64,000 nucleotides of DNA. Source: Truepera sp. bin119. GTDB lineage: Bacteria > Deinococcota > Deinococci > Deinococcales > Trueperaceae. Location: positions 1 to 64,000 of the forward strand of contig MPNL01000008.1 of assembly GCA_002239005.1 (NCBI GenBank), given 5' to 3'. Below are positions 24,195 through 27,898 of the stretch, piece by piece; within the stretch, counting starts at the first letter, position 1; each line of letters starts with the position of its first letter. A program made the translations under genes and the position numbers. The notes beneath the pieces are model-generated. The model had not been told where the DNA came from and searched no databases. It saw nothing but the letters and a program-made list of their open reading frames with translations.

Positions 24195-25722
24195 TCAGGC
24201 ACTTGCGATCCGCGGCATCCGGGTGGGTTCGGCTGCCAGGGTGGCCTGCAGGAAGCGGTGCAGGAGTTCCTGCTTCACCGCCTCCGCATCGGGATCCTGC
24301 CACAGGTTGGTGACCTCGCCAGGATCGTTCACGAGGTCGAACAGCTCCCCGTCGTCCCCCTCTCAGTAGACCGTGATCTTATAGCGTTCGTCCACATAAG
24401 TGCGGAGGTGGGGCCTAACCGGGTTGTGGCGATTCTCGCACAGGATATGGTCGCGAGCCTTCACTTCCAGGCCCTGCCATACGGCGAGCTGGTTGACCCC
24501 CTGCATCAGCCCCGGAACCGGCTGCCGCGCAGCGCTCAGGAAGGTCGGGGCCAGGTCGACCAAGCTCTGCAGGGCGCCGGCGACGCGGCCCTCGGGGACC
24601 CTCCCGGGCCAGCGGACGACGAAGGGAAGGCGCAAGCATATCCTCGTAGTGGAAGGGGCCCTTGGCGATGAGGCCGTGCTGGCCGATGAAGTGACCGTGA
24701 TCGGTGGTAAAGACCACCAGGGTATCGGCGGCGAGCCCTCGCTGATCGAGAGCGTCAAGGATGCGCCCTATATGGTGATCCATGAGGCTGATCATGCCGT
24801 AGTAGCTGGCGATATCCCGCCTGAGTTCCCCTTCGTCGTGCAGGTGACTGTGGCAACCGTGAGCGGCGTATGGCCGGTGCCAGTCTCCGAAGTCTGGCTC
24901 CCGCTGCTGAGTTTTGGCAAAGTGGGGCGGGTTGCGATCGTGCTCTCCGGGCGTCAACCTGCCCGGAACCAGCTCGGCAGGCTCGTACATCGAGACCCAT
25001 GGCTCCGGCACCAGGTAGACCGGGTGCGGATCCTGGAAGCTGGTCCAGACGAAGAAGGGCTCCCCTCCCCCAGCGGCATTGCGATCGATGAACTCGATAG
25101 TCTTATCGGCCGTCCATTTCGAGTAGTGGAAACCCTCGGGAAGCTCCCATCGGTGTCGCCGCCTCCCCGGATCCCCGGGGGCGAGGAAGTAGTCACGCCA
25201 GTCGGTCAGACCCTGCTCCTCGAGCCAGATGGCGTAGTGCTGGCCCGAATGCGACTCGTCGGTGTGATTGCGCGCTAGCTCGATGGAGTCAAACCCATAC
25301 CAGGGGCCCCGGAACTCGCGCCAGAAGTCGAGATCCCGCAGGGTGGGCTGGCTCTCGAGGGATTCCGAGTCCGGCCGCGAGGCCAGCGGCTGGAAGTGTG
25401 CCTTGCCGACCAGCGCGGTCTGGTAACCGGCCTCACTCAGCTGCCCCCCCACAGTGGGAGCATCCTCGGGGAGCTTCACCCCGATGGTCCAGGCGCCGTG
25501 CACCGAGGGGTAGAGGCCGGTGATTATGCTCGCCCGCGAGGGGGTGCACACGGGGTTGGGACAGTATGCCCGGTCGAAGCGAGTCCCTTCGCGGCAGAGT
25601 CGGTCGAGGGCTGGGGTCTGGATGCGCGGATTGGTGACCCCGAGGGTGTCGTAGTGCTGCTGATCGCTGGTGATCAGCAGGATGTTGGGGGGGCGGTCGG
25701 TCCTGACAGCAGGGGTACTCAT
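24195..25722 (-). pseudogene. Second sulfatase, broken by a frameshift and a stop codon
   Basis: The reading frame from ATG 25722 begins PPNILLITSDQQHYDTLG and contains the formylglycine motif CTPSRASIITG, so it was a type I sulfatase. After GPFHYEDML (near 24636) one extra base shifts the frame; the rest (RLPFVVRWPGRVPEG onward) is in the next frame. That frame meets an in-frame TGA at 24363-24365 inside a conserved C-terminal stretch (RYKITVY, then GELFDLVNDPGEVTNLW) and would end at 24195. Two independent lesions argue for real decay rather than a single sequencing slip. It is the upstream member of the tandem pair. Confidence 0.85.
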
Positions 25723-25909: not shown

Positions 25910-27898
25910 TCAATGGCTGCTCTGGCGCCGGCGCAGCACGCGAAACTTGAACGACGATGTGGGGTGGGGGGTGGGTGTCTGTTTGACTTTCAGTTTGTAG
26001 CCAGGCGAGGCTAGTCTGAGTTCCAGATCATGGACGATCGTCAAGAGTGTGAGTGCAATCTGTACCTCGGCAAAATTGCTGCCCAGGCAGCGATGCGTTC
26101 CCAAGCCAAAGGGGGCAAAGGCTCCCGGTTGCTTATGCTCGGCCCGTTCCGCCGTGTAGCGATCGATATCGAAGCGCTGAGGATTCGGAAACCACTCGGA
26201 GAGGTGATGCGTTACAGTGTTGCCGACGATAACCTTCGTCCTTGCTGGCACGTTGTAGCCGGCAAACTCGAATGAGTTGGCTACGGTGCGCGGGAGACCG
26301 GAGATAACCGGATACATGCGCAGCGTTTCCAGAACGGTGCGATGCGTGACATCTAGCTCGCGCAAGCTTTCAGGCGCCAACGTTTCTTGATCGAAGAAGG
26401 CATCTGCCTCGGCAGTTATGCGCTCAAGCAACTCGGGATGCTTCAAGATCGCGTAGATCATGAAGGCACAGGTAGTGGCCGCAGTCTCGATCCCGGCGAA
26501 GAATGGACCCAGCACGGCTAACTGCAAATCCGTCTCGGGAAAGAATTGCGGGTCGGTCCGGTGCAGTTCGAGAAAGTCGTCGATCAGATCGCGGTTCGCA
26601 CGGTCCTCGCGTTCGTGGTGAGCCAACACCATCGTGTGCAGTTCTTCTACTCGCTTGCGGGCGCGCCGCAGCCGCGGTAGGCGCAGAATCCAGCCGGGGC
26701 GCTGCCGCATCACGTGGACCCTGAGCAAACCATTGAGAGTGGTGATCAAGTCATCAATGCTATCCTCTACGGAGATACCGGTAGTCAGTATGGCGATTTG
26801 CTCAGCTATGATGTTTTGCATGGCGTATTGGGTGACGACGGGCCGGTTCTGTGGCCATTCGGCGATCATGCGACGCGTGATGTCAACGACCTCATCCAAG
26901 CGGTGTTCGATAGACTTCTGGGAGTATGCGCTCCTTTGTACCTTGCGCATGCGAATGTGAGCGGGCCCGTCCATAGCTGTGAGCGCGTCCTTGGCTCCCA
27001 TTGCCATATTGAAACCCTGCCATGTCTCGTGCGAACGCAGGAAGCTTCTTCCCTGTTTCTGCACAAAGCGATTGGCCTCCAGACCAACGAGGGCGATATA
27101 GCGGCGGTTGAGTGCGCGGATCTGAAAAATCGGGCCGTGTTTGCGGTATTGCCTAGTGAGAAAGGAGCGGAGGTCTCCAGCCATGTCGAAGGCGCTGCCG
27201 ACAAGAGGCCACCCCGATACCTGCGGTATCTCTTCGGGAGGACGAACGGAAGGGGCAGGGGGAGGAGGTCCCATCGACCGCAGGGCACGAGCGACCGATT
27301 GGCCTATGAGGTCCATCTTGCTGATGAGGTCGATCCGTTCCTGCACTTCTGCCAGCTCGTCGCGGGACAGGATGCATTCAAACACGTCACAGGCCGCTGC
27401 AAGACTGATAATGACGATATCGCGCGGGTCTGGAATATCATCACTGAACAGCAATCTCATTATGCGGGACTGGACTTCCTCCGTAGCCTCGCCGTCAATG
27501 ACGGGGTAGCGCTTGGAACGTGACACGTTGCTGGAGAGGAAAAACAGAGTTGAGCCCTCGGACTCGAGAATGCCGCGTTGGACCAGCCTGGAGAGCGCCT
27601 GCTCGCGGATCTCATCACCATGCATCGCTACATGTCCCAGCCAGTGTCCGACCGGGTAAGCGCGAGCGTCTTGTGCGATCACAGCCAAGGTCGGATCGAG
27701 CAATTCATCTCCGACAGGCGTTGGATCGATGAGCATCAGCCGTTCAAGATCGGTGTCAATGCGGTTTTCCAGCGCCAGATCCATCAACACGGCGCCAGCG
27801 AGCACGGTATTGAGCGAGTGCGGCGGCAGGGAGGGGGCGATATCGCCGTCCTCACCGCTTAGGAGCAGTAGGAGAATCTCTTCAACGAATCTAAGCAT
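25910..27898 (-). CDS. GPP34 domain fused to cytochrome P450
   Basis: This 662-residue protein has two parts. Residues about 1-225 match the GPP34 (GOLPH3/Vps74-like) family: VEEILLLLLSGEDGDI, LNTVLAGAVLMDLALENRI, DPTPVGDELLD, and a REQALSRLVQRGIL helix. Residues about 240-655 are a complete P450. It has the Pro-rich hinge PPPPAPSVRPPEE, the I-helix AGIETAAT, the ExxR motif ETLRMYP, and the haem loop FAPFGLGTHRCLG with the Cys ligand. GPP34 proteins bind phosphoinositide-containing membranes in eukaryotes; here the domain may tether the oxygenase to a membrane, which is inference. It ends the operon after the MFS pump (17-bp gap). Confidence 0.85.
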   Translation of the reverse strand: MLRFVEEILLLLLSGEDGDIAPSLPPHSLNTVLAGAVLMDLALENRIDTDLERLMLIDPTPVGDELLDPTLAVIAQDARAYPVGHWLGHVAMHGDEIREQALSRLVQRGILESEGSTLFFLSSNVSRSKRYPVIDGEATEEVQSRIMRLLFSDDIPDPRDIVIISLAAACDVFECILSRDELAEVQERIDLISKMDLIGQSVARALRSMGPPPPAPSVRPPEEIPQVSGWPLVGSAFDMAGDLRSFLTRQYRKHGPIFQIRALNRRYIALVGLEANRFVQKQGRSFLRSHETWQGFNMAMGAKDALTAMDGPAHIRMRKVQRSAYSQKSIEHRLDEVVDITRRMIAEWPQNRPVVTQYAMQNIIAEQIAILTTGISVEDSIDDLITTLNGLLRVHVMRQRPGWILRLPRLRRARKRVEELHTMVLAHHEREDRANRDLIDDFLELHRTDPQFFPETDLQLAVLGPFFAGIETAATTCAFMIYAILKHPELLERITAEADAFFDQETLAPESLRELDVTHRTVLETLRMYPVISGLPRTVANSFEFAGYNVPARTKVIVGNTVTHHLSEWFPNPQRFDIDRYTAERAEHKQPGAFAPFGLGTHRCLGSNFAEVQIALTLLTIVHDLELRLASPGYKLKVKQTPTPHPTSSFKFRVLRRRQSSH

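Follow-up and report, generated by a model that had tools for sequence, protein, structure and literature searches.

The 64,000-nucleotide stretch of DNA analyzed here (the window; positions 1 to 64,000 of contig MPNL01000008.1; 62.9% GC) belongs to Truepera sp. bin119, whose genome comprises 91 contigs and 3,211,324 bases. In the available portion of its description, this member of the Trueperaceae was binned from Aplysina aerophoba, a sponge; the bin consists of 91 contigs, is 91.89% complete at 62.23% GC, and has an estimated size of 3.5 Mb (PMC5649159). The bacterium very probably lives in a marine sponge. On its minus strand, the window codes for three closely spaced genes, transcribed in the order EcKL-like kinase, MFS protein, and GPP34-P450 fusion, with 17 nt in each of the two intervals. 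The relevant features are as follows:

25910..27898, minus strand: GPP34-P450 fusion protein, 662 aa, one open reading frame (ORF) and the putative final gene of the operon
27272..27883, minus strand: GPP34 (GOLPH3/Vps74-fold) domain, residues 6-209 (Pfam PF05719; predicted model)
27215..27271, minus strand: Pro-rich linker, residues ~210-228 (sequence; pLDDT <50 at residues 212-220 in the model)
26006..27217, minus strand: P450 domain, residues 228-631, with Cys604, ExxR, and an AGIET I-helix (Pfam PF00067, motif columns, fold)
27916..29538, minus strand: MFS exporter (DHA2/EmrB-like), ending 17 nt before the fusion, with homologues near 5 other fusion loci
29556..30782, minus strand: EcKL (ecdysteroid kinase-like)/APH-fold kinase, ending 17 nt before the MFS gene, with homologues beside the fusion at 5 other loci
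34532..35548, minus strand: sterol-methyltransferase (SMT)-like protein lacking the C-terminal Sterol_MT_C part, 6.6 kb from the fusion

The union of a GPP34 domain with a P450, claimed by an earlier note made from the sequence, is borne out by the 662-aa ORF, which lies exactly at 25910-27898 on the minus strand and holds both Pfam domains in the same frame. The GPP34 profile, which the note had expected within residues 1-225, matches residues 6-209 (PF05719; E = 3.8e-37; 128.7 bits against a cut-off of 29.1), and the P450 profile matches residues 228-631 (PF00067; E = 8.7e-57; 193.3 bits against a cut-off of 22.8). The GPP34 blocks that it quoted, of which the first is VLAGAVLMDLAL, and its Pro-rich hinge, PPPPAPSVRPPEE, are likewise found in the sequence, and both the Pfam matches and the predicted models support two independent domains joined by a Pro-rich linker. 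In the P450 half, the heme ligand that it had proposed is Cys604, within FGLGTHRCLG; this is accompanied by the E524xxR527 motif and by AGIET at residues 468-472, which supplies the acid-Thr pair E471-T472. With the Cys loop, ExxR, and the I-helix acid-Thr pair all present, the protein is by its motifs a predicted member of the cytochrome P450 superfamily, and the other half belongs to the GPP34/GOLPH3 family by a profile match and a fold that extend over the whole domain.

Structure prediction with AlphaFold gave a mean pLDDT of 78.7 for the full protein and 88.9 for the GPP34 half modelled alone. Structure comparison of the latter recovered all five GOLPH3/Vps74 entries listed with Z scores of 16.9-19.5, the next fold scoring 3.9, and a profile built from 29 bacterial GPP34 domains reached Vps74 and GOLPH3 with E values of about 1e-12. 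The P450 half is tied between BM3, CYP51, CYP120A1, and CYP46A1 (Z of 34-35; ~20% identity), and its top sequence matches in the PDB are CYP51 and CYP120; as the fatty-acid P450 BM3 ties with the sterol P450s, the fold does not set the substrate. We rejected an identification of the protein as CYP51 itself, since AGIET departs from what we take to be the CYP51 I-helix signature, CYP51 being simply the nearest solved relative.

As for the neighboring genes, the kinase is a member of the EcKL family (PF02958; E = 3.2e-17; 63.3 bits against a cut-off of 22) and also matches the general APH fold; in the available text of PMC12117438, EcKL proteins are named for ecdysteroid phosphorylation. The models nearest to the MFS protein are those for drug efflux, all matched below their NCBIfam cut-offs. 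The SMT-like protein is closely related to an SMT from another locus, L109 (phmmer E = 5.5e-154; L and G numbers designate loci and genomes, respectively); it has the methyltransferase domain, while PF08498, contained in its full-length close relatives (L109, L168, and L169), was not found in it, so that it falls short of a sterol methyltransferase proper. It is very similar to its counterparts at L109 and L168, its end perhaps lost through frame loss, and it is probably related in function to the fusion, yet stands outside the operon. On the other side of the fusion, a sulfatase gene (24363-25722, minus strand) seems to be disrupted: the Pfam match ends prematurely within its 435-aa ORF, and what reads like the remainder is found in a different frame, in an ORF (24363-24758) that overlaps the first. 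Beside the operon, 31242-32816 on the plus strand codes for an ankyrin-repeat-like protein of ~524 aa (family judged by eye), a class enriched in sponge symbionts according to the available portion of PMC8163846.

The earlier note implied that the fusion was unique, which is wrong: such fusions form a family in many genomes. A scan of a genome collection with GPP34 alignments recovered at least 542 relatives, of which the best 80 were analyzed; these comprise 19 GPP34-P450 fusions, 3 GPP34-Rieske fusions, 1 broken fusion (L055), and 57 stand-alone GPP34 genes. By record, the 19 fusions come from Latescibacteria, Gemmatimonadota, SAR202, Acidobacteria (Bryobacterales and Holophagales), Gamma- and Alphaproteobacteria, and "Desulfurellaceae." This recurrence in 19 of the best 80 relatives argues against an assembly accident, and a chance or assembly join of GPP34 and P450 is rejected, as the fusion recurs across separate assemblies; the case that the note itself raised, of a sequencing error joining two genes, is excluded in practice by the separate assemblies sharing the fusion, with the P450 starting at the same place after a short linker. 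In the broken member, on an Arenicellales chromosome, the GPP34-P450 gene has an internal stop and the kinase and MFS neighbors persist.

Some of these loci also come from sponges. Bins 18, 65, and 87 among them are A. aerophoba bins in the available text of PMC5649159, and loci labelled RHO, COS, IRC, CAR, and APA look like the sponges covered in the accessible part of PMC8163846; the remaining loci, judging by isolate names, may likewise be of sponge origin. The 29 genomes behind 30 of the loci, which were picked mostly for their fusions, contain 1-9 GPP34 copies each. The window's own genome has a second, stand-alone GPP34 (L032; G000 C34:57654-58256, minus strand), whose identity to the fused domain is 53%. 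Among the 64 genomes of one phylum group, 25 have GPP34 and 17 have GPP34-matched frames of at least 650 aa; in a second, the respective counts are 43 and 24 of 400, the long frames having been counted by hand on frame length alone. Of 111 genomes from the window's own phylum, 6 have a GPP34 match over the cut-off and just one, the window's genome, has it full-length; a whole-protein search of 61 genomes of close relatives found no fusion outside that genome.

We rejected carriage of the fusion on plasmids or phages, as none was seen among the plasmid and phage records searched: none of the 598 matching plasmid records covers 80% of the fusion protein, the GPP34 half matched one plasmid record and no phage record, and viral contigs scanned with the GPP34 alignments contained no relative. 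The nearest plasmid-borne relative of the P450, 36% identical to that of the window, belongs to a Planktothrix cluster; on plasmid p2 of Planktothrix agardhii (L030), genes for squalene cyclase, squalene synthase, several P450s, and Rieske proteins are clustered.

In a quick tree of 114 GPP34 domains, all 41 P450-fused domains fall on one side of a branch with 98% SH-aLRT support. This single clade across phyla points to an apparently single origin of the fusion, followed by horizontal spread. In the P450 tree, the SAR202 member L044 joins the alphaproteobacterial L117 and L118 (99%), and the window P450 groups with members from Gemmatimonadota/Latescibacterota and L043 (85%, not starred); this tree, too, was built quickly, has long branches, and misplaces L014 (an 11%-filled row), and our conclusions are limited to its starred groups. 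The window's GPP34 domain is 37-67% identical to that of nearly all other fusions (30% for L170 and 36% for the incomplete L172), and its P450 is 29-60% identical to the others, the lowest value being that of the incomplete L188. The fusion, MFS, and kinase genes together have a GC content of 57.8% against 62.9% for the window, which fits transfer.

An alignment of 44 fusions including the window's (three of them, L171, L172, and L188, incomplete) reveals two kinds of P450. The heme loop is intact with its Cys in 42 of the 44, L171 ending earlier and L188 having masked bases. The I-helix has a D/E-Thr pair in 14, including the window's, which is thus of the first kind, and His-Thr in 6; the other 24 (one of them the masked L188) have a one-residue gap in this helix with neither an acid nor a Thr there, as in ASV-YLGD and AGH-YLGS (e.g., L154, L156-L158, and L160-L170). 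These gapped versions retain the heme Cys and ExxR and constitute a starred clade in both the GPP34 and the P450 trees; their activation of oxygen may depart from the usual course or be lacking.

One or more of seven steroid/triterpenoid-type families (MFS excluded) are found near the fusion at 40 of 45 loci and near none of the 57 stand-alone GPP34 genes, a control biased toward this result because the neighbor seeds were chosen from fusion loci, so that recurrence beyond a seed's own locus is what counts. The mean called span was 12.3 kb for the fusion loci and 11.2 kb for the stand-alone ones, and the neighbors come from simple ORF picking, whereby some are partial. Across the 45 fusion loci, we counted a KshA-type Rieske oxygenase at 18, a sulfotransferase at 12, an SMT at 11, a squalene-cyclase-family protein at 7, EcKL at 6, MFS at 6, a squalene-epoxidase-like protein at 4, and a 3beta-HSD-like SDR at 2, along with AcrB-type RND at 12 and MMPL at 6; every one of these families scored 0 of 57 at the stand-alone loci. 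Once near-duplicates are dropped, a steroid/isoprenoid-type neighbor persists at 32 of 36 fusion loci (KshA 15, SMT 10, sulfotransferase 8, cyclase 4, EcKL 5). Of the full 45, five (L040, L045, L115, L151, and L187) have none of the seven families. Pfam searches with representative neighbors confirmed Sterol_MT_C, KshA_C, squalene-hopene cyclase (SHC), squalene epoxidase, EcKL, and sterol-sensing MMPL. At L117, L118, and L153, the kinase and fusion genes share 4 nt of overlap; at several loci, KshA is on the same strand as the fusion, at a distance of 13-391 nt. Complete cyclases at L117, L118, L063, and L094 carry the SHC motif DxDDTA. At L170 (8167-11577), beside the fusion, a single ORF of 1136 aa combines a squalene-epoxidase-like start with the oxidosqualene-cyclase (OSC)-type VSDCTA.

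The GPP34 domain is mainly familiar from the animal and yeast Golgi and, to our knowledge, almost solely from Golgi sorting. The earlier note suggested that it may be a lipid-binding tether, which is plausible as a hypothesis. One specific version of this idea, a PI4P tether, was not kept: at the positions of the PI4P contacts of yeast Vps74, which we take to be W88, R97, K178, and R181, the window's domain has P, A, D, and R, thereby retaining only the Arg at 181. Among 114 aligned bacterial GPP34 domains, these residues are present in 0, 0, 5, and 83, respectively; as not one of the 114 has W88 or R97, binding of PI4P is unlikely, and the window's domain does not qualify as a PI4P-binding GOLPH3 by its residues. 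The putative membrane association of the fusion may come about by another membrane contact, or the domain may act as a protein dock.

The latter possibility is suggested by the other partners of GPP34. A C-terminal Rieske [2Fe-2S] domain is fused to GPP34 at L072, L114, and L119 (genomes G128, G136, and G138), as recognized by PF05719 and PF00355 in the first two and by sequence in L119. A further version, at L173, L175-L183, and L185, has a membrane tail with four invariant His residues (10 tails aligned); this tail has no Pfam match above the cut-off, and weak matches to DUF4079, cytochrome b561, and DUF4405 (E of 0.005 or higher) give only a hint that it might be a b-type cytochrome. In all 11 loci, the gene immediately downstream codes for a multiheme cytochrome c, an arrangement seen at 0 of the 57 stand-alone loci; it has 10 CxxCH motifs in 10 of the 11 and 7 in L180, which is clipped by the contig end. 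In the GPP34 tree, next to the single P450-fused clade, the three Rieske rows group with one stand-alone row (99%), and the membrane-tail rows lie together at the base, not starred as one group. More than one of these architectures occurs in some genomes, and the alphaproteobacterial MAG jk18x34bins.19 (G138) holds all three. The presence of GPP34 on P450s, Rieske ferredoxins, and membrane tails suggests a docking module for redox proteins, and such a role, alone or together with membrane contact, would explain the three architectures better than a plain lipid anchor.

Taking these findings together, we propose, with about even confidence, that the fusion is a P450 monooxygenase for a sterol or polycyclic triterpenoid, encoded by the last gene of a three-gene operon, whose GPP34 domain holds the P450 at the membrane surface and/or docks redox partners. 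In this scheme we infer the substrate class, the order of reactions, the export, and the docking or membrane role of GPP34: the P450 would add a hydroxyl to the sterol or triterpenoid, the EcKL-type kinase would phosphorylate a hydroxyl, and the MFS protein would export the product. A lipid-like substrate, already suggested by the earlier note, gains indirect support from the steroid/triterpenoid-type neighbors, and the recurrence of the same fused gene in many unrelated bacteria, usually beside steroid-related genes, makes this look like a widely shared modification of sterol-like molecules. Sterols are abundant in sponges, and the substrate would probably originate in the sponge or in other symbionts, because the genome of the window (96.84% completeness) shows no match to the squalene/oxidosqualene cyclase family (PF13243). 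In the available portions of the respective sources, SMTs of sponge symbionts show in vitro activity on sterols (PMC10070321), and the symbionts of Ircinia possess sterol gene clusters capable of transfer (PMC9531527). A tentative extension, which we regard as possible though doubtful, is that GPP34 is a shared docking tag, with matched tags bringing an oxygenase and its electron donors together on the membrane for the modification of sterol-like lipids, and with the set having passed by horizontal transfer between sponge symbionts from many phyla.

Other readings of the operon draw on parts of the same evidence. It is conceivable, though unlikely, that the P450, kinase, and MFS protein serve in detoxification, hydroxylating, conjugating, and expelling mixed toxic metabolites of the sponge or its symbionts, with sterols being incidental. 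The match of the EcKL protein to APH-type kinases, the drug-efflux-like DHA2 character of the MFS protein, the recurrence of the trio at L044, L055, L117, L118, and L153, and the sulfotransferases adjoining other fusions are all in keeping with this, whereas the SHC, squalene-epoxidase-like, SMT, KshA, and sterol-sensing MMPL genes of related loci point to one substrate class; at L117 and L118, the trio itself adjoins a squalene-hopene cyclase and a squalene-epoxidase-like gene. A second alternative is that the fusion decorates what a cyclase of its own cell produces, to yield membrane lipids or secreted molecules of saponin type. In favor of this are the squalene-cyclase-family genes at 7 of 45 loci, with the SHC motif in the complete ones, the OSC-type motif beside squalene-epoxidase-like sequence at L170, and, in the accessible text of PMC9531527, the occurrence of sterol gene clusters in Ircinia symbionts together with horizontal transfer. 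We hold such home-made substrates to be unlikely: PF13243 is unmatched in the window's genome, as noted above, and no cyclase lies within the analyzed flanks at 38 of 45 loci, where it could sit elsewhere in the genome. Finally, the P450 could start the degradation of host sterols as a carbon source, the ring being attacked by KshA. The KshA-type oxygenases near 18 of 45 fusions speak for such catabolism, as does the abundance of divergent KshA in sponge metagenomes and the isolation of sterol degraders from sponges, reported in the available part of PMC5790920. It is nevertheless quite improbable, as the methyltransferases, sulfotransferase, kinase, and exporters nearby build or export rather than degrade, and PF19298 (KshA) found no match in the window's genome, in a search whose control matched 1 of 14 genomes, below the cut-off.

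If the proposed oxidation of a sterol or triterpenoid by the fusion is right, it would provide a bacterial function for GPP34 and a P450 architecture for which we found no description in the open-access literature searched. Within the accessible portions of that literature, work naming GPP34 with cytochrome P450 concerns insects, and none of relevance links GPP34 or Golgi phosphoprotein with sponge symbionts. It would also explain part of the sterol modification by sponge symbionts and bear on which organisms make the unusual sterols of sponges that serve as molecular fossils, a matter of debate in the available text of PMC10070321 and PMC9531527. Moreover, tag-versus-tag comparison would offer a simple test of whether a P450 and its electron donor can be brought together by a domain of the GOLPH3 fold.

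Among known systems, the sterol clusters of sponge symbionts are likewise sponge-associated, distributed over many phyla, horizontally moved, and inclusive of SMT and a P450 (CYP51); they differ in consisting of ERG24-CYP51-ERG7 and SMTs, with no mention of GPP34 or the fusion in the available portions of PMC9531527 and PMC10070321. The CYP51-ferredoxin of Methylococcus is similarly a sterol P450 with an added domain, whereas the partner in the fusion is GPP34, placed at the N terminus, and the I-helix has AGIET instead of the CYP51 motif. Streptomyces SCO4440 is a bacterial protein of the same Pfam family, in this case a stand-alone GPP34, that the accessible text of PMC12402492 connects with peptidoglycan and wall-deficient-cell phenotypes rather than with oxidation, stating that GOLPH3-like proteins were previously undescribed in prokaryotes; relative to such stand-alone bacterial proteins, the fused domains form a clade of their own. 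With the GOLPH3/Vps74 proteins of eukaryotes, the GPP34 domain of the fusion shares its fold, the closest entry being GOLPH3 9qpq (Z of 19.5; 194 residues aligned at 2.8 A; the other four at 16.9-17.8). In contrast to them, the fusion has the Trp and Arg of the PI4P site replaced and begins at the domain itself, without the N-terminal extension for coat binding, and here the domain is joined to an enzyme, in a cell with no Golgi.
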